Below, in pieces: positions 371 through 64,000 of a DNA stretch of 64,000 nt. The DNA is from an uncultured bacterium (GTDB lineage Bacteria; Cyanobacteriota; Vampirovibrionia; Gastranaerophilales; Gastranaerophilaceae), in assembly GCA_902788575.1 (NCBI GenBank), contig CADAKY010000013.1:1-64000 (forward strand), in the 5' to 3' direction. Below the pieces are notes generated by a model, which worked only from the letters and a program-made list of their open reading frames with translations, did not search any database and was not told where the DNA came from. The position numbers were made by a program, and so were the translations under genes. The number at the start of each line of letters is the position of its first letter. Position 1 is the stretch's first letter.

Positions 371-388
371 ATTGTAAATTTTTGTAAC
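371..388 (-). promoter_or_regulatory. HLR1-type RpaB box, perfect match
   Basis: On the minus strand this reads GTTACAAA-AA-TTTACAAT, an exact match to the cyanobacterial HLR1 consensus (two (G/T)TTACA(T/A)(T/A) units spaced by 2). A third degenerate unit (TTAACAAA) lies just downstream at 392-399. The box ends 17 nt upstream of the -35 of the sigma-28 promoter that drives the gene at 477. The match is seen directly; binding by the RpaB-like protein encoded at 57703 is inference. Confidence 0.7.
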
Positions 389-405: not shown

Positions 406-432
406 TAAAGTTTTTCAAAAAAATGCCGATAT
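406..432 (+). promoter_or_regulatory. Sigma-28 (FliA-type) promoter
   Basis: TAAAGTTT (406-413), an 11-nt spacer, then GCCGATAT (425-432). This matches the FliA consensus TAAAGTTT-N11-GCCGATAA at all but the last base. The predicted start is near 439, giving a leader of about 38 nt to the ATG at 477. A FliA/WhiG-family sigma factor is encoded in the window at 29813. Confidence 0.8.
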
Positions 433-8480: not shown

Positions 8481-8600
8481 CAATCTGACTAAAATAATAT
8501 AAATAATCAACCCCTCACCGCATTCGTAGTTTTCAGTCTTACGCCCTCAAACACGACTGCTCCTCTCCCGCTGGCTGAGGGGGCTCATTTTTTTTGACAT

Positions 8601-8773
8601 TAAATGCAATAACACACAAAGCGTGCAGGCTATACCTGCTACATCCATTCAATCCCTCAGCCGTAAGGCTGATGTGGTTATCCATTCAATCCGGTGTTTT
8701 CTCTCTTTCTTTTTGTTTCGTTTTTCTTTCTCTCTTTGCCTCCGAAACAAAGAGAGAAAGAAAAATGAAAGTG
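8601..8773. repeat. Dispersed repeat B, first copy
   Basis: Aligns without gaps to 60696-60868 with roughly nine in ten bases matching by eye. Includes the hairpin 8716-8738/8748-8770 with loop CCTCCGAAA and a CAGCCGTAAGGCTG stem. An open frame runs through it in both copies (see findings), but I do not annotate it as a gene. Confidence 0.85.
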
Positions 8774-29812: not shown

Positions 29813-30634
29813 ATGGAACAAGAGGATTTCTCATCATACAGTAAAATTAAACGTTTAGATAATGAAGAACTCGCAGAATTGTGGGGGCGTTATTTTGATG
29901 ACCATGAAAACAAACATTTGAGAGATGAATTAATAATACAATATATTTACCTGACAAAGTATGTCGTAGGCCGTGTTAAAGTTGCTCTTCCTCCGACTTT
30001 TTCTTATGAAGATATTTCAAGTTATGGTGTAGAAGGGCTTATTGATGCTGTAGAAAAATTTTCTCCGAGAATGGGTGCAAGATTCGAAACATACGCACTG
30101 GTAAGAATTCGTGGAAATATTATTGATAAAATTCGTTCTCAAGACTTTTTGCCAAGAAGTGTAAGAAGAAAAATTAAGGATGTAAAAGAAGCACAGGATG
30201 AATTGAGACGTCAATACGGAAGAAGTGCAACGAATACAGAAATAGCTAATTATTTGGGCATAGAAAAAGAAAAAGTTGAACAAATTTTGTCTGATGATAC
30301 AACAGTGACATCAATTTATGACAAGAAAGGCTCAACTGACGGTGATATTGAAATTATTGATACAATACAGGATTCAAATTCACTTGCCCCGCATGAAAAA
30401 TTAGAAGAAAAAGATGTTAAAAAAGAGCTGGAGGATGCTTTGAGAAGACTGCCGGAGAGAGAAAGAACAATAATGGTTCTTTATTATCATGAGAATATGA
30501 CATTAAAAGAAATAGGTGATGCAATAAATGTATCAGAGTCAAGAATTTCCCAGCTGCATGCTCAGGCTATTATGAAACTGAAAAATCTTTTGAGTGAAAA
30601 TCGTTCTGAAAGATTAAAAAGAAGTATAATTTAA
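29813..30634 (+). CDS. FliA/WhiG-family RNA polymerase sigma factor
   Basis: 273 residues, sigma-28 class: region 2 (YEDISSYGVEGLIDAVEKFSP, then ARFETYALVRIRGNIIDKIRSQDFLPRSVRRK), region 3, and region 4 with HTH MTLKEIGDAINVSESRISQLHAQA. Directs polymerase to TAAA-N15-GCCGATAA promoters in motility or developmental regulons. A near-perfect such promoter precedes the gene at 477. No anti-sigma (FlgM) gene is adjacent. It heads a same-strand run with lptC and lptA (37-nt gap). Confidence 0.92.
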   Translation: MEQEDFSSYSKIKRLDNEELAELWGRYFDDHENKHLRDELIIQYIYLTKYVVGRVKVALPPTFSYEDISSYGVEGLIDAVEKFSPRMGARFETYALVRIRGNIIDKIRSQDFLPRSVRRKIKDVKEAQDELRRQYGRSATNTEIANYLGIEKEKVEQILSDDTTVTSIYDKKGSTDGDIEIIDTIQDSNSLAPHEKLEEKDVKKELEDALRRLPERERTIMVLYYHENMTLKEIGDAINVSESRISQLHAQAIMKLKNLLSENRSERLKRSII

Positions 30635-34887: not shown

Positions 34888-35396
34888 TGATTATAACTGC
34901 AGGAATATATAAGGGCAGAAAAATCATTTCTCCTGATGAAAAAATTACTCGCCCGACGTTATCAAAAGTACGTATGGGTGTATTTAATATGCTTTATTCA
35001 ATCCTGGGTGATTTTTCTGATAAAACCTTTCTTGATGTATTTGGCGGTTCGGGCATAATGGGGCTGGAAGCTTTATCAAGAGGGTTTAAAGAAGTAAGAG
35101 TTTTTGAACTTAATAAAAAATCAGCTTGTATAATAAAAAAAAATTATTGTATGTTAGGACTTGAGCCTGATTTAAGAATCGGTGACAGTACAAAATTGAT
35201 TTTGAAAAATGAAAAAAAATATGATGTAGTTTATATAGACCCTCCGTATGAAAGCGGAATGTATGAAAAAATTATATCAAATGTAAACGGTGAAATAATA
35301 GTTGCAGAGCATGCTGAGCCTTTTGAAGCAAAAGAGCTGGAACTCTTGAAACAAAAGAGTTATGGCGGGAAAATGATAACTATTTTAAAAAAATAA
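34887..35396 (+). CDS. rsmD: 16S rRNA (guanine966-N2)-methyltransferase RsmD
   Basis: 169 residues. TRPTLSKVRMGVFNML, SAM-binding FLDVFGGSGIMGLEALSRG and catalytic DPPY, in family order. Methylates G966 of 16S rRNA. ATG overlaps the previous stop. Usual partner coaD is absent here. Confidence 0.93.
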   Translation: MIITAGIYKGRKIISPDEKITRPTLSKVRMGVFNMLYSILGDFSDKTFLDVFGGSGIMGLEALSRGFKEVRVFELNKKSACIIKKNYCMLGLEPDLRIGDSTKLILKNEKKYDVVYIDPPYESGMYEKIISNVNGEIIVAEHAEPFEAKELELLKQKSYGGKMITILKK

Positions 35397-35480
35397 TATA
35401 AACATTTGTAAAAAAAACACTTATTCAGGCTGGAAAAACTAAAAAAGAATGTTAATATAAGTAGTAAGGGAATAAAAAAA

Positions 35481-35554: not shown

Positions 35555-37396
35555 GTGAATAAAGAAAAAGATATAACCAACAACATAAACAAAATATCTG
35601 AAAAATCCCCTGTGACAGTGCCTTTTGAAACATCAAAACTCGTTTCAAAAGTGAATTCATTGACACAGAAACCGACTGCGGCAGCCAGTTACGGGCAGAC
35701 CCATAAAACTCTTGTGTCTGAAAAAAGTGTTACCTTAGATTATAAATCTATGGTTGATGAAATAATAAAGCTTGCATTTATATCTGAGCAGGGAGATTTC
35801 TATTCTGCTGTATATAAAATAATCAACAAATACATTGATGCAGAATTTATGGCAGTAGGTATTTTTAAAGAAAAGTCTAATTGTATAAATATAAAACTTA
35901 AAGAAAAACTGGGGAACATATATTCATCAAAAACTTTTCTAAAAGATACCGATAATCCTATTGTACAGTCGTTTATTGAAAGAAAAGTTATTTTTAAGAA
36001 TGATGTAAACTTTTTAAAAATGGCGTATTTCAAAAATCAATCAGTTGCAATTGTTCCTATGATTTCTGTTAATAAGTGTATAGGTGTGATGATTTTTCAA
36101 GATAAAAATGCACGCCAAAATATTGAATTATATACTCTTATTGCTAATTATGCAGGTTTGGTTTCTCATAATTGCGAGTTAATGGAAAAAGCAGAAGAGT
36201 ATGTAAATACGGATAATTTAACATTATTGTATAACCACAGAGGTTTTCAGGAAATATTGCAAAATGAGATTTTAAGGGCAGATGTTAAAAAACAGCAGCT
36301 ATCTGTCATAATGCTTGATATTTGCAATATAACAAAAATTAACAGAGAACTCGGGCATGCAAAAGGGGATGAAGTTATTAAACTTGTTGCCGATAATGTA
36401 AAACGTAATTTAAGAGAAGGTGATATTGCTGCAAGATATGGCGGAGACGAGCTTGCAATAATACTTCCGAATACATCAATTTCTCAGGCAAAATATGTTG
36501 CTGAATATTTAACGTATTCTTTGTCCTGCTTCTTTATAGATGATGTGGGACCCGTAAAAGTATCCGTTGGAATTTCAACTTATCCGGAAAGTGCAGGAGA
36601 CAAAGAAAAACTTCTTGTACTTGCCGAGCAGGCTATGTATATTTCAAAGGCAAAAGGTTATAAAGACGGTATGTCCGCAATTATCAGTTCTGCTGACTTC
36701 AACTTCTGGGATGATGTTGCTTTGCAATCTTATGCAGAAGTTTTGAGTAAGCGTCACGCACAGCTTGGAATAAATTTTGAAGAAGAACTTCTTGAAAAAT
36801 TCAATTCGGAGCACGATACAATATCAGAGAATAAGATTTTTGAAATAGCATCATCATTAGCAGGCGCAATTGATGCAAAAGACCCTTATACAAAAGACCA
36901 TTCGACTTCAGTTTCCAGATTCTCGGAAGCTCTTGCAAGAGCAATCAATTTGCCGGAAACAGAAGTAGAGCGCATAAAACTGGGTGCTTTGCTTCATGAT
37001 GTCGGAAAAATCGGTATTCCGGAAACTGTATTAAAGAAAGAGGGCCCGCTTTCTGATGAAGAATGGAAAGTAATGAAACAGCATCCTTCAATCGGTGCGG
37101 AAAAAGTTTTGATGCCAAATCCGTCACTTAGAGATTTGATACCTATTGTAAAATACCACCATGAAAGAATTGACGGTAAAGGATATCCGGAAGGTCTTTC
37201 AAATGGCAGTATTCCGCTAGCCGCAAAAGTTGTGGCAATAGCGGATACTTACCATGCTTTGATAAGCGACAGACCGTACAGACGCGGAATGGATATGGAA
37301 AAGGCTCTTTCAATATTGGAAGAAGGTGCGGGTACTCAATGGGATGCTGATTTGGTAAGAACATTTATAAGTATTGCACCATCTCTGGGAGTGTAG
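35555..37396 (+). CDS. GAF-GGDEF-HD-GYP cyclic-di-GMP protein
   Basis: 613 residues starting with GTG 35555 (AAAGGTGG upstream). A Ser/Lys/Thr-rich N-terminus (~1-70), GAF domain (~75-215), GGDEF domain (~220-370) and HD-GYP phosphodiesterase (~420-610: LLHDVGKIGIPETVL and HHERIDGKGYPEGL, metal ligands intact). The GGDEF signature reads GGDEL, but an inhibitory-site RxxD (REGD) is present five residues before. Could both make and degrade c-di-GMP, or use GGDEF as a sensor. No membrane segment. Confidence 0.92.
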   Translation: MNKEKDITNNINKISEKSPVTVPFETSKLVSKVNSLTQKPTAAASYGQTHKTLVSEKSVTLDYKSMVDEIIKLAFISEQGDFYSAVYKIINKYIDAEFMAVGIFKEKSNCINIKLKEKLGNIYSSKTFLKDTDNPIVQSFIERKVIFKNDVNFLKMAYFKNQSVAIVPMISVNKCIGVMIFQDKNARQNIELYTLIANYAGLVSHNCELMEKAEEYVNTDNLTLLYNHRGFQEILQNEILRADVKKQQLSVIMLDICNITKINRELGHAKGDEVIKLVADNVKRNLREGDIAARYGGDELAIILPNTSISQAKYVAEYLTYSLSCFFIDDVGPVKVSVGISTYPESAGDKEKLLVLAEQAMYISKAKGYKDGMSAIISSADFNFWDDVALQSYAEVLSKRHAQLGINFEEELLEKFNSEHDTISENKIFEIASSLAGAIDAKDPYTKDHSTSVSRFSEALARAINLPETEVERIKLGALLHDVGKIGIPETVLKKEGPLSDEEWKVMKQHPSIGAEKVLMPNPSLRDLIPIVKYHHERIDGKGYPEGLSNGSIPLAAKVVAIADTYHALISDRPYRRGMDMEKALSILEEGAGTQWDADLVRTFISIAPSLGV

Positions 37397-44180: not shown

Positions 44181-44198
44181 GTTACATTTCTTAACAAT
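44181..44198 (+). promoter_or_regulatory. HLR1-type box, near-consensus
   Basis: GTTACATT-TC-TTAACAAT: the first unit perfect, the second with one mismatch, canonical spacing. It lies at about -58 to -41 from the predicted start of the 44261 gene. A further half-site GTTACAAA is at 44212-44219, inside the spacer of the promoter. Confidence 0.6.
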
Positions 44199-57595: not shown

Positions 57596-57669
57596 ATTAA
57601 AAAAAATATGCTTGCAAATTTCTTTAACTTCTATTAAGATATATGTATAAATATTAAGAAATTAAAATT

Positions 57670-57677
57670 TTTGTAAA
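57670..57677 (-). promoter_or_regulatory. HLR1 half-site before the RpaB-like gene
   Basis: TTTGTAAA, one perfect half-site, 26 nt before ATG 57703. Autoregulation possible but only half a box. Confidence 0.3.
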
Positions 57678-57702: not shown

Positions 57703-58491
57703 ATGGCAGAAGAAAATGAAGAAATATTAGAGACGGAAGCCGATACTCGTCAAAAGATTTTGGTAGCTGATGATGAAGCTAGTATAAGAAGAATATTGGA
57801 AACTCGTCTCAAGATGGTTGGTTATGACGTTGTAACGGCAGAAGACGGAGAAGAAGCTGTAGAAGTTTTCAATAAAACAAATCCTGATTTGGTAGTGTTA
57901 GATGTAATGATGCCAAAAATGGACGGTTATGGTGTAACAAGAGAGATAAGAAGAACATCTGATGTTCCGATTATTATACTTACCGCTTTAGGTGATGTAT
58001 CAGAAAGAATTACAGGTTTAGAGCTCGGTGCAGATGATTATGTAATCAAACCATTCAGCCCGAAGGAACTTGAAGCTCGTGTAAAAGCTGTTTTAAGAAG
58101 AACTATTAATAAGGATGTTATTATACCTACATCCTCTTCTGCAGCAGGTTCCGGTGCTACAGGTGGTAAAAATAACAAAAATGTTATTACAACAGGTGCT
58201 ATAAAGATTGATACAGCAAGAAGACAAGTATACAGAAAGAATGAAAGAATTCGTTTAACAGGTATGGAATTCAGTCTTCTTGAACTTCTTGTAAATAATT
58301 CAGGTCAAGCATATTCAAGAAACGAAATCTTGCAGCATGTTTGGTCATACCCTGCTGATCATAGAATTGATACAAGGGTTGTTGATGTTCATATTTCAAG
58401 ATTACGTTCAAAGTTAGAAACAGACCCGAACAATCCGGAATTGATTTTGACAGCACGCGGAATCGGATATATGTTTCAGAGAATAAATTAA
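57703..58491 (+). CDS. RpaB-like OmpR-family response regulator
   Basis: 262 residues. Receiver domain (~17-135): DDE near 23-25, phospho-acceptor D67 in VVLDVMMPKMDGYGV, T/A switch and K in VIKPFSP. A Ser/Gly/Asn linker to ~165, then the winged helix (~165-262: RIRLTGMEFSLLELLVNNSG, DTRVVDVHISRLRSKLETDP, ELILTARGIGYMFQR). ILETRL, ALGDVSERITGLELGADDYV and the DNA-recognition helix are nearly those I remember for cyanobacterial RpaB, which binds HLR1 boxes under NblS/Hik33 control. No kinase is adjacent. Identity with RpaB is from memory, not a search. Confidence 0.88.
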   Translation: MAEENEEILETEADTRQKILVADDEASIRRILETRLKMVGYDVVTAEDGEEAVEVFNKTNPDLVVLDVMMPKMDGYGVTREIRRTSDVPIIILTALGDVSERITGLELGADDYVIKPFSPKELEARVKAVLRRTINKDVIIPTSSSAAGSGATGGKNNKNVITTGAIKIDTARRQVYRKNERIRLTGMEFSLLELLVNNSGQAYSRNEILQHVWSYPADHRIDTRVVDVHISRLRSKLETDPNNPELILTARGIGYMFQRIN

Positions 58492-59854: not shown

Positions 59855-60406
59855 GTGAAAAAGATATTAGTAGTTTCAATTTTAATAATAACTATTGCTT
59901 GCTGCATTTCAGCAGAACGTCCGAGATGGGTTGGACAGCCGATATATGTTTATGTTCCTGAGTACGGGAATATGAGTATACTTATGAAACAGGCTTTCAT
60001 GGCATGGCAAAACCAATCTAAGCAGCTTGTGAGGTTTAAGTTTGTAAATAGTCCTTCTAATGCAAACATTGAGGTTGAATTTGTTGATTTTGTATCTGAT
60101 TGCGGTGACACTAATCATGCTGTCGGATGTACGGAAATGGCAACAAGAGCAGGGCAATATTATAAATCCTATGTGACAATAGGAACAAAAGAATATGTGC
60201 GCAAATTAAAAGGCGGAAAATATACAAGACAAATGGTAACCCGTTCAAAAAATCATATTTATGGTGTTATGCTTCATGAAGCAGGGCATTCAATCGGTTT
60301 AGGACATTCCGCAAGCAAAGGCAGTATTATGTATCCTTATGATTTGGATGACATGCAATATTTAACAAAAAGTGACTTACAGCTTTTATATAAAAAATAT
60401 CATTAA
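59855..60406 (+). CDS. Secreted matrixin-type zinc metalloprotease
   Basis: 183 residues from GTG 59855. Signal peptide (KKILVVSILIITIACCISA). Complete zinc site H141-E-A-G-H145-S-I-G-L-G-H151 and Met-turn SIMYP (157-161). Two cysteines (SDCGDTNHAVGC) may form a disulfide. No propeptide with cysteine switch. Probably an exported protease of small matrixin type, in contrast to the degenerate relative at 21376. Only 18 nt after purB, and no terminator seen between them. Confidence 0.88.
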   Translation: MKKILVVSILIITIACCISAERPRWVGQPIYVYVPEYGNMSILMKQAFMAWQNQSKQLVRFKFVNSPSNANIEVEFVDFVSDCGDTNHAVGCTEMATRAGQYYKSYVTIGTKEYVRKLKGGKYTRQMVTRSKNHIYGVMLHEAGHSIGLGHSASKGSIMYPYDLDDMQYLTKSDLQLLYKKYH

Positions 60407-60542
60407 ATCTAAATATAATAACTTAAAATTTTAGTACAGGATGCATCAGAATATATTTTTTGTTGTGTATTGTTTTTGTTTAAATTTATAAGACATTTTC
60501 TTTTTGTCTGTTGTTTATATTTTTTCTTTTTTTAATCTTGTT

Positions 60543-60589
60543 GTACTTTTCTTTCTCCTTATTTCGGAGGTAAGGAGAAATAAAAGTAC
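60543..60589. repeat. Long hairpin with TTTCGGAGG loop
   Basis: 19-bp stem, one mismatch; the 9-nt loop is the reverse complement of CCTCCGAAA found in the hairpins at 8716 and 60816. Followed by a diverged inverted half-copy of repeat B (60590-60690), so two repeat-B units stand head to head with their hairpins outward. Confidence 0.75.
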
Positions 60590-60695
60590 CAAAAGAAAGA
60601 GGAAACACCGGATTGAACGGTTAACCACTATGCCCTTGCGGGCATTTTGACTGAATTGATGTTTTCGGCAGAGCCGAATCTCTTTGTTTAAGAAT

Positions 60696-60868
60696 TGAAT
60701 GCGGTAATGCACAAAGGGAGCAGGCTATGCCTGCAACAGCCATTCAATCCTTCAGCCGTAAGGCTGATATGGTTATCCGTTCAGTCCGGTGTTTTCTCTC
60801 TTTCTTTTTGTTTCGTTTTTCTTTTTCTCTTTGCCTCCGAAACAAAGAGAGAAAGAAAAATGAAAGTG
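60696..60868. repeat. Dispersed repeat B, second copy
   Basis: Ungapped match to 8601-8773. Hairpin 60816-60833/60843-60860 with loop CCTCCGAAA; the one changed stem base makes a G-T wobble that keeps the pairing. The ~800-bp gap 60407-61205 otherwise contains only the rpoB regulatory region. Confidence 0.85.
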
Positions 60869-60968
60869 CCAAGAAAACACAAATACAAAATTAAAAAAGT
60901 TTGTAAGGTAACAAAAACAATACACAACAAAAAATATATTCTGATGTGCTTAGTGCAAAAAATATTTA

Positions 60969-60986
60969 ATTGTAAATTTTTGTAAA
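60969..60986 (-). promoter_or_regulatory. HLR1-type RpaB box, perfect match, upstream of rpoB
   Basis: On the minus strand TTTACAAA-AA-TTTACAAT, exact consensus with canonical spacing. It lies at about -90 to -73 from the predicted rpoB start. Confidence 0.7.
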
Positions 60987-61024: not shown

Positions 61025-61052
61025 TTGACGGAAGTTTTTGACGGGGTATGAT
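61025..61052 (+). promoter_or_regulatory. Sigma-70 promoter of rpoB
   Basis: TTGACG (61025-61030), 16 nt, TATGAT (61047-61052), giving a leader of ~145 nt. No rplL gene precedes, so rpoB here has its own promoter rather than the usual ribosomal-protein operon context. Confidence 0.7.
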
Positions 61053-61205
61053 TGTATAACATGGGCATTTTATGCGGGATAATTATGCCCATAAGGTGAA
61101 AATTTAATAATAGCACACGGTATGTCGCAGTCATAGTTACGTTTGACTACCCTATTTATATAAAAAATTATACGTACATCACACAAAGACAAATGAGGTG
61201 AATTA

Positions 61206-64000
61206 ATGTCGACAGAATATGCAAAAAGAGTAACGCCAATGGGTATTCCGAATACTCGTTTGGACGATTTACCGGATCTTATTGACGTGCAAAAAAAATC
61301 ATTTGAATGGTTTTTAAAAGAAGGGCTTAAAGAAGAGTTATTGGCTTTTTCTCCTGTTAAGGATTACACAGGCAGATTAGAGCTTCACTTCTTACCGAAC
61401 TACACGTTTGACAACGCAAAATACACAGTAGAAGAAGCAAGAATCCATGACACAACTTATGCAAAACAGCTTCGTGTAATGGTTAGACTTGTAAACCGTG
61501 ACAGCGGTGAAATTAAAGAACAGGAAGTTTATATCGGTGACATTCCTACAATGACAGACAAAGGTACGTTCATTGTAAACGGTGCGGAACGTGTTATCGT
61601 ATCTCAAATCGTTCGTTCACCTGGTGTTTACTTCAAGAGAGAAATTTCTCCGACCGGTAAGAGACTTTATAACGCAACCATGATTCCTAACAGAGGTGCT
61701 TGGTTAAAGATTGAAACAGACTCAAATGACGTAATTTACGTTAAGATTGATAAGACAAGAAAAATTCTTGCAACAACATTATTGAAAGCAATGGGTATCA
61801 CTGTTTCAGAAATGGAATCTTTATTTACTCACTTTGAATTCTTGAAAAAGACTTTGGATAAAGATACTACTGAAACTACAGATGATGCTTTAATTGATTT
61901 ATATAAGAAATTGAGACCAGGCGATCCGGCATCTGCTCAAGGCGGACGTCAAATTCTTGAATCAAGATTCTTTGATGAAAAGAAGTATGATATCGGTCGT
62001 GTAGGTCGTTATAAATTAAACAAAAAATTAAACTTGAATATTCCTAAGAACCAAAGAACACTCACTGTTCAAGATATCGTAGCTTCAATCGAATATTTGA
62101 TTAATTTAACATACGATGAAGGTACATTGGATGATATCGACCACTTGGGAAACAGAAGAATCCGCTCTGTTGGCGAACTTCTTCAAAACCAATTCAGAGT
62201 AGGTCTTTCAAGAATAGAAAGAATCGTTAAAGAAAGAATGACTCTTCAGGATTCTGAAACTCTTACTCCGTTGAACTTGTTAAATACAAAACCGTTAGTT
62301 GCTTCATTGAAGGAATTCTTCGGTTCTTCACAATTATCACAGTTCATGGACCAGATTAACCCGTTGGCTGAATTAACTCACAAAAGACGTGTTTCAGCAT
62401 TAGGACCGGGCGGTTTACAAAGAGAAAGAGCAGGTTTTGCTGTTCGTGATATTCACCCTTCTCACTACGGTCGTATTTGTCCGGTAGAAACACCTGAAGG
62501 TCCGAACGCAGGTTTGATAGGTTCATTAGCAACTCACGCAAGAGTTAATGATTATGGTTTTGTTGAATCTCCGTTCTTTGTTGTAAAAGACGGCAAAGTA
62601 ACAGACGAAGTTGTTTATATGACAGCAGACGAAGACGAAAATTTCCGTTGCGCTCCTGCTGACGTTCAGTTAAACAAAGATAACACATTCAAACAAAAAC
62701 AAGTTCCTGTACGTTACAAATCGGAATTCATTATGGCTGATTCATCAACAGTAGACTATGTTGGTGTTTGCCCGATTCAGATTATTTCTGTTGCGACATC
62801 AATGATTCCGTTTATTGAACACGATGACGCAAACCGTGCATTGATGGGTTCAAACATGCAACGTCAATCAGTACCTCTTTTAATTACAGAAAGACCGGTA
62901 GTAGGTACGGGTATGGAACGTCGTGTGGCAAAAGACTCCGGAATGGTTGTTTGCGCTAAGGTAGACGGTACAGTTGAAAGAGTTGTAGGTGAAGAAATTG
63001 TTATCGTTGATAAACAAGGTAAAAAGCACTTACATACATTAATGAAATATGTTCGTTCAAACCAAGATACATGTATTAACCAAAAACCGATTGTTCACGA
63101 AGGAGACAAGGTTAAAGCGGGTGATGTAATCGCTGACGGTGCATCAACAAGCTGCGGAGAACTTTCAATCGGTAAAAACATTTTGGTAGCATATATGCCT
63201 TGGGAAGGATACAACTTCGAAGATGCTATCCTGCTTTCAGAAAGATGCGTACACGATGACATCTTCACATCAGTTCACATTGAAAAATTAGAAATAGATG
63301 CACGTCAGACAAAACTCGGACCGGAAGAAATTACCCGTGAAATTCCGAATGTTTCAGAAGAAGCTTTGAGACATTTGGATGAAAGAGGAATTGTTCGTAT
63401 CGGTGCAAGAGTTTATGCTGATGATATCTTGGTTGGTAAAGTTACACCGAAGGGTGAATCTGAACATCCGCCGGAAGAAAAGCTTTTACGTGCAATCTTT
63501 GCTGAAAAAGCAAGAGACGTAAAAGACAACTCATTAAGAGTTCCTCACGGTGAAGGCGGACGTGTAGTCGATGTTAAGGTATTTGACAGAGAAAAAGGCG
63601 ATGAATTACCACCGGGAGCAAATACTGTTATCAGAGTATATATCGCTCAAAAACGTAAGGTATCAGTAGGTGACAAACTTTCAGGACGTCACGGTAATAA
63701 AGGTATTGTATCAAGAATTCTTCCTAAAGAAGATATGCCGTTCTTACCTGACGGAACTCCTGTTGATATAGTTCTTAACCCGCTGGGTGTACCTTCTCGT
63801 ATGAACGTAGGTCAAACTTATGAATGTTTGTTAGGTTTGGCTGCATACTTGACAAAAGATCACTACGAAGCACCTTCTTTCGATGAAAGATATGGTGACA
63901 ACCAATCAGAAATCGCAACTAAGGCTGAACTTTTGAGAGGTATTAAAGAATCAGGATGTGATTGGGTAAGAGAAGACGGTAAGGTTTACCTGATTGACGG
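61206..64000 (+). CDS. rpoB: RNA polymerase subunit beta (5' part)
   Basis: First ~931 residues; the gene runs off the window. [13 protein letters not shown], the rifampicin pocket ([20 protein letters not shown] and [20 protein letters not shown]) with Asp, His and Ser of the sensitive type, [17 protein letters not shown], and [19 protein letters not shown] near the end are all present. ATG 61206 follows GAGGTG. Codon use is restricted compared with neighbours, as for highly expressed genes. Perfect HLR1 box and own promoter upstream. Confidence 0.97.

Follow-up and report, generated by a model that had tools for sequence, protein, structure and literature searches.

The HLR1 box upstream of rpoB

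The window (the whole 64-kb stretch of DNA that was analysed) contains the rpoB gene, a predicted sigma-70-type promoter in front of it and, farther upstream, an HLR1 box and the gene of an OmpR-type response regulator (Table 1). On the minus strand the box reads TTTACAAA-AA-TTTACAAT (in full letters TTTACAAAAATTTACAAT) and has no mismatch to the consensus (G/T)TTACA(T/A)(T/A)-N2-(G/T)TTACA(T/A)(T/A), or KTTACAWW-N2-KTTACAWW, the element that RpaB uses in cyanobacteria (PMC13421787, PMC9241938). Thus, the perfect match reported in the initial annotation is confirmed. The gap between the box and TTGACG is 38 nt, close to the ~40 nt given in that annotation, and the distance from the box to the rpoB start is 219 nt. 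Counted from its first base, the box lies 56 nt 5' of TTGACG, and spans about -90 to -73 relative to the predicted start near 61059. The RpaB-like regulator gene, which had been placed ~3 kb away, ends 2.5 kb from the box. Comparison with Rfam gave no gathering-level match near the site; the weak matches there belong to unrelated families. The zinc protease gene of this region keeps purB and rpoB as its neighbours in many relatives.

Table 1. Features of the window discussed in the text
Feature	Position	Strand	Basis or remark
Second exact HLR1 box	371..388	-	35 nt upstream of a sigma-28-type promoter
Predicted sigma-28-type promoter, TAAAG-N14-GCCG, of gene 477-2051	406..428	+	gene product without Pfam family
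FliA/WhiG-family sigma factor	29813..30634	+	TIGR02479, 228 bits vs. cut-off 189.6; NF005413, 214.7 vs. 201
HLR1-like site, one mismatch	35395..35412	-	142 nt before gene 35555-37396; matrix score 16.5
HLR1-like site, one mismatch	44181..44198	+	between two genes; matrix score 15.6
Weak, half-preserved HLR1	57660..57677	-	25 nt before rpaB; three mismatches; matrix score 11.3
rpaB, OmpR-type response regulator, candidate HLR1 binder	57703..58491	+	NF045944 (RpaB equivalog), 355.8 bits vs. cut-off 330
Secreted-looking zinc protease	59855..60406		HEAGH motif; adjoins rpoB
MITE-like repeat, ~520 bp, near-palindromic	60436..60955		perfect 37-nt terminal inverted repeats, 60444..60480 and 60910..60946
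HLR1 box of rpoB	60969..60986	-	exact consensus; TGTAAA orientation toward rpoB
Predicted sigma-70-type promoter of rpoB, TTGACG-N16-TATGAT	61025..61052	+	sequence; block conserved in the genus
rpoB, RNA polymerase beta subunit	61206..63998	+	TIGR02013, 1374 bits vs. cut-off 801; leaves the window

Genome-wide distribution of HLR1 sites and their putative targets

A pattern search of the genome (1.73 Mb in 36 contigs, 88% complete, 65% A+T) with TTTACAAANNTTTACAAT showed nine exact matches, 32 with at most one mismatch and 93 with at most two, compared with 2 (at most one mismatch) and 27 (at most two) for the reversed pattern. Direct repeats of TTACAA with free spacing have a sharp maximum at a period of 10 (33 of the 100 pairs listed); among the same 100 pairs, the runner-up period has 8 and period 11 has 6. 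The full IUPAC consensus gave 50 exact sites, and the reversed consensus none, in 786 kb composed of 41 stretches that were mostly picked for holding hits, irrespective of coding status, so that these densities are not genome averages. All 50 sites are intergenic, whereas intergenic DNA makes up 13.6% of the 786 kb. A scoring matrix built from 77 HLR1 sites, the rpoB site excluded, yielded scores above 16 at 81 intergenic positions vs. 2 coding positions. Both G positions are almost invariant across the 77 sites, and the sites concentrate 60-105 nt upstream of gene starts with TGTAAA toward the gene. Thus, the scan for HLR1 shows enrichment both over its controls and in intergenic over coding DNA.

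The putative targets in transcription and translation include rpoB, rpsJ (S10) and rpmG (L33). Others are several flagellins, pyruvate formate-lyase, PPDK, a Na/Pi cotransporter, an LptB-like ABC protein, MinC, S-adenosylmethionine decarboxylase, a LuxR-type response regulator and many proteins without a Pfam family. For ~20 targets, the match in a second species (G020) also has an exact HLR1, in some cases at a protein identity of just 30-50%. At the level of sequence, rpoB is not a special target; it is one among dozens of putative HLR1 promoters, many of them of the sigma-28 type.

Conservation of the rpoB site and size of the HLR1 set

Comparisons within the genus were made with 25 genomes whose contigs extend far enough upstream of rpoB. 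The box is present on the same strand in all of them, exact in 24 and with one mismatch in one. The distance from the HLR1 5' end to the TTGAC of the conserved promoter is 56 or 57 nt in 23 genomes, 33 nt in one and 66 nt in one. A search of named genomes, in which the query was the promoter block and not the box, found HLR1 in 30 of 30 records (29 exact); these records, for the most part gut and rumen MAGs of Candidatus Gastranaerophilales and largely of one species group, overlap the 25-genome set. In 37 distinct rpoB upstream sequences the HLR1 core columns are invariant, compared with an average majority identity of 0.46 in the 40-nt upstream flank, a contrast that arises partly by selection because only loci with one mismatch or none were admitted.

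Outside the genus, two of the nine other genera of the family have a fair rpoB site (offset 57-58, scores of 16.8 and 15.4), and among 17 loci from the order's other families, a site is present in two, both of one genus (offset 59, scores of 20.2 and 14.8). In the remaining loci of these two sets the box is weak or missing. In 17 photosynthetic cyanobacteria, the 600 nt next to rpoB contain no HLR1 with two or fewer mismatches. The conservation in relatives expected from the initial annotation therefore extends across the genus (25/25) and largely ends at the genus boundary. The sequence comparisons support the assignment of the rpoB box as a true HLR1-type element.

In the other families of the order (L098-L114), rpoB is under a different conserved promoter, TTCTTGACTAT...TTTTTTGCTATACGAT; an inverted repeat often lies in front of it and runs up to the -35 element.

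Genomes of the same genus have 40-77 exact HLR1 sites each (controls 0-5). The number per genome falls to 11-33 in the family's other genera (controls 0-12), to 4-19 in the order's other families and to 1-15 in the sampled photosynthetic cyanobacteria. With counts dropping outside it, this genus of Gastranaerophilales appears to have an enlarged RpaB regulon.

Promoter geometry

Many HLR1 sites are followed by a sigma-28-type promoter, TAAAGTTT-N11-GCCG. The HLR1 5' end is located exactly 35 nt before TAAAG, the sigma-28-type -35 element, in 11 of 13 cases in this genome. The offset in G020 is likewise 35 nt in 16 of 22 cases and 45 or 46 nt in five; at two sigma-70 promoters of that species it is 56 and 66 nt. 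The HLR1 of rpsJ has an offset of 44 nt here and 56 nt in G020, and that of rpoB is positioned about two helical turns farther upstream than at most other targets. Relative to the predicted starts, the boxes of the sigma-28-type targets span about -68 to -51. The placement of HLR1 at 35 nt, or higher by one to three helical turns, suggests an activator: steps of ~10.5 nt hold the box on one helix face and therefore fit a protein that contacts RNA polymerase.

Cyanobacterial RpaB activates or represses according to the position of its site. The activating sites in Synechocystis lie at -66 to -45, so that the rpoB box (-90 to -73, counted from a predicted start) is located above this range, and the repressing sites fall between about -38 and +23 and overlap the start site (PMC13421787). 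With a regulator capable of both modes, RpaB bound at the rpoB promoter could repress it or merely hold it. However, the boxes here stand above the -35 element in a fixed helical phase, as would be expected of activator geometry. Because the repressing cyanobacterial boxes overlap the start site, repression at rpoB, the main rival of activation, appears less likely than activation and is on the whole unlikely.

The FliA/WhiG-family sigma factor encoded in the window likely reads the sigma-28-type promoters. A SigB/F/G-like sigma factor is encoded elsewhere in the genome, at C3:47005 (L084). Within the loci L040-L079, another promoter type downstream of HLR1, GTTAC-N13-17-GTGGNAT, stands before flagellin-type genes, and a further recurring type ends in CTTTATATATATG. 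The gene at 477-2051 of the window and a gene of another locus (L073, 3528-4709) encode paralogues that start with MGM(A/S)ASQA(N/R)L and have no Pfam family. Both genes are under HLR1 and sigma-28-type promoters, and their products may serve the flagellar programme as structural or surface proteins.

The RpaB orthologue and other candidate regulators

The regulator encoded in the window is 71-75% identical to its best match in photosynthetic cyanobacteria, with an identity of 72-73% to their RpaB in the winged-helix domain. Its core recognition helix, DTRVVDVHISRLR, is identical in seven loci from photosynthetic-lineage genomes. By the curated cut-off and the recognition helix, the protein is an RpaB orthologue, and it is the candidate binder of the HLR1 boxes.

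The genome encodes three OmpR-type regulators, and TGTAAA-like direct-repeat boxes are common in this family (WalR, PhoP), so that one of the other two (C4:103368, which a histidine kinase adjoins, or C1:52622) or another factor might bind HLR1 instead. However, only the regulator of the window passes the RpaB cut-off of 330 bits; the other two reach ~205 bits, and their recognition helices, RMLRVHVGALRNK and ETIRVHIRHLRSK, differ from TRVVDVHISRLRSK of RpaB. The WalR/PhoP boxes of Firmicutes are direct TGTAAA-like repeats with a period of 11 that are bound by OmpR-family regulators. The boxes here are alike in the repeats and unlike in the period, since period 10 alone stands out, and a WalR/PhoP-type box is ruled out by 33 of the 100 pairs listed at period 10 vs. 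6 at period 11. Binding by a regulator other than RpaB is thus very unlikely. A chance match in AT-rich DNA, or a stretch resembling an UP element that has no dedicated regulator, could draw on the base composition (65% A+T) and on the 11 matches with three or fewer mismatches in the window against 6.6 expected, but is ruled out by the reversed-pattern controls (50 exact sites vs. 0) and shuffles, by the near-invariant G positions and by the conservation and fixed promoter spacing of the site, which leave it a negligible probability.

With RpaB as the preferred binder, its kinase and the setting of its gene were also considered. Among five kinases scanned, in a genome that has ten HisKA loci and is 88% complete, none scored above the cut-off for NblS, the kinase of RpaB in cyanobacteria (NF045911, best 114 vs. 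1000). The HLR1-like site in front of rpaB scores within the background range (11.3) and gives no statistical support to a possible autoregulation of rpaB. Proximity of rpaB to rpoB was rejected as evidence because it is not kept in relatives: rpaB is absent beside purB-rpoB in relatives with enough adjoining DNA, and the two genes are ~200 kb apart in another genus. Judged from gene order, the position of rpaB beside rpoB here is an accident.

Proposed mechanism and relation to known systems

We assign a probability of roughly 0.8 to the reading that the rpoB box is a genuine HLR1 bound by the RpaB of the same organism, which would act as an upstream activator of a genome-wide regulon enlarged in the genus. 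The element itself, its enrichment, placement and conservation and the orthology of RpaB are the observations from which this reading starts, and the binding, the dimer, the activation and the signal are the steps that it would add. RpaB would be phosphorylated by a kinase, bind the two HLR1 half-sites as a dimer and act from upstream of the promoter, probably as a class I type activator. The box would present RpaB on a fixed helix face, canonically with 35 nt from its 5' end to the -35 element; at rpoB, as at rpsJ of G020, RpaB would act two turns higher (offset 56/57). The regulon would span core transcription and translation genes (rpoB, the S10 operon and L33), sigma-28-type promoters and flagellins. 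The target list suggests that RpaB may also control growth and motility genes without light. A broader and more tentative reading is that RpaB might be a light-independent master activator working with several sigma factors in a single helical geometry and coupling polymerase and ribosome synthesis to the flagellar (sigma-28) programme, a role it could have had before oxygenic photosynthesis or taken on in its absence.

The HLR1/RpaB systems of Synechocystis 6803 and Synechococcus 7942 use the same 18-bp box of two KTTACAWW separated by N2 (PMC13421787, PMC9241938, PMC5785211). The regulons are also alike in the identical core recognition helix of RpaB, in sites upstream of promoters and in global scope. 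However, the putative targets here are rpoB, ribosomal protein genes and sigma-28-type and flagellin genes, whereas those of Synechocystis and Synechococcus are photosystem genes. The number of exact sites in the genus likewise differs from that in the sampled photosynthetic cyanobacteria (40-77 vs. 1-15 per genome).

The host lineage has been reported as non-photosynthetic in the literature on Gastranaerophilales. Homologues of RpaA, RpaB and NblS were described in Melainabacteria (Di Rienzi et al. 2013, PMC3787301; also PMC4040986), and Di Rienzi et al. suggest that these regulators preceded photosynthesis (PMC3787301). HLR1 is mentioned in neither PMC3787301 nor PMC4040986, and the function of RpaB is left open in both. 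Thus, the presence of RpaB had already been reported, and the putative binding sites and targets are added here. The term "former" high-light regulator used in the initial annotation is not borne out: nothing here shows a photosynthetic past, and PMC3787301 suggests a pre-photosynthetic origin.

The HLR1 box, RpaB and the presence of RpaB in this lineage are already known. In openly readable papers HLR1 was not connected to rpoB, to flagella or to cyanobacteria that do not photosynthesise, and an earlier description of rpoB as a target is possible. The regulon, the links to sigma-28-type promoters and to rpoB and S10 and the enlargement in the genus are apparently new, as none was found in openly readable papers. 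RpaB is among the most conserved cyanobacterial regulators and has been discussed almost solely for light and redox control of photosynthesis; since 2013 it has been known to persist, with no function assigned, in the sister lineage that does not photosynthesise. The regulon read from dozens of boxes at fixed geometry indicates what RpaB would control in this lineage and provides a list of promoters for testing, so that a role of RpaB outside photosynthesis becomes directly testable. It would also offer a first regulatory logic for common, mostly uncultured gut bacteria, in which flagellin genes share one box with core genes of transcription and translation.

The repeat beside the box

The MITE-like repeat ends 14 nt before the rpoB HLR1. 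Other genomes of the genus lack the repeat upstream of rpoB and yet have the box there, and the repeat was therefore rejected as the source of the box. More copies are located at 8584-8773 of the window, at L066 (9638-10074) and at L046 (2451-2841), and many contig ends have one. In stretches mostly picked for HLR1 hits, 8 of 15 copies, and 6 of 10 at contig ends, have an HLR1-type site no more than 125 nt away. The copies near HLR1 are the one beside rpoB and those in L040, L060, L062, L066, L071, L075 and L293.
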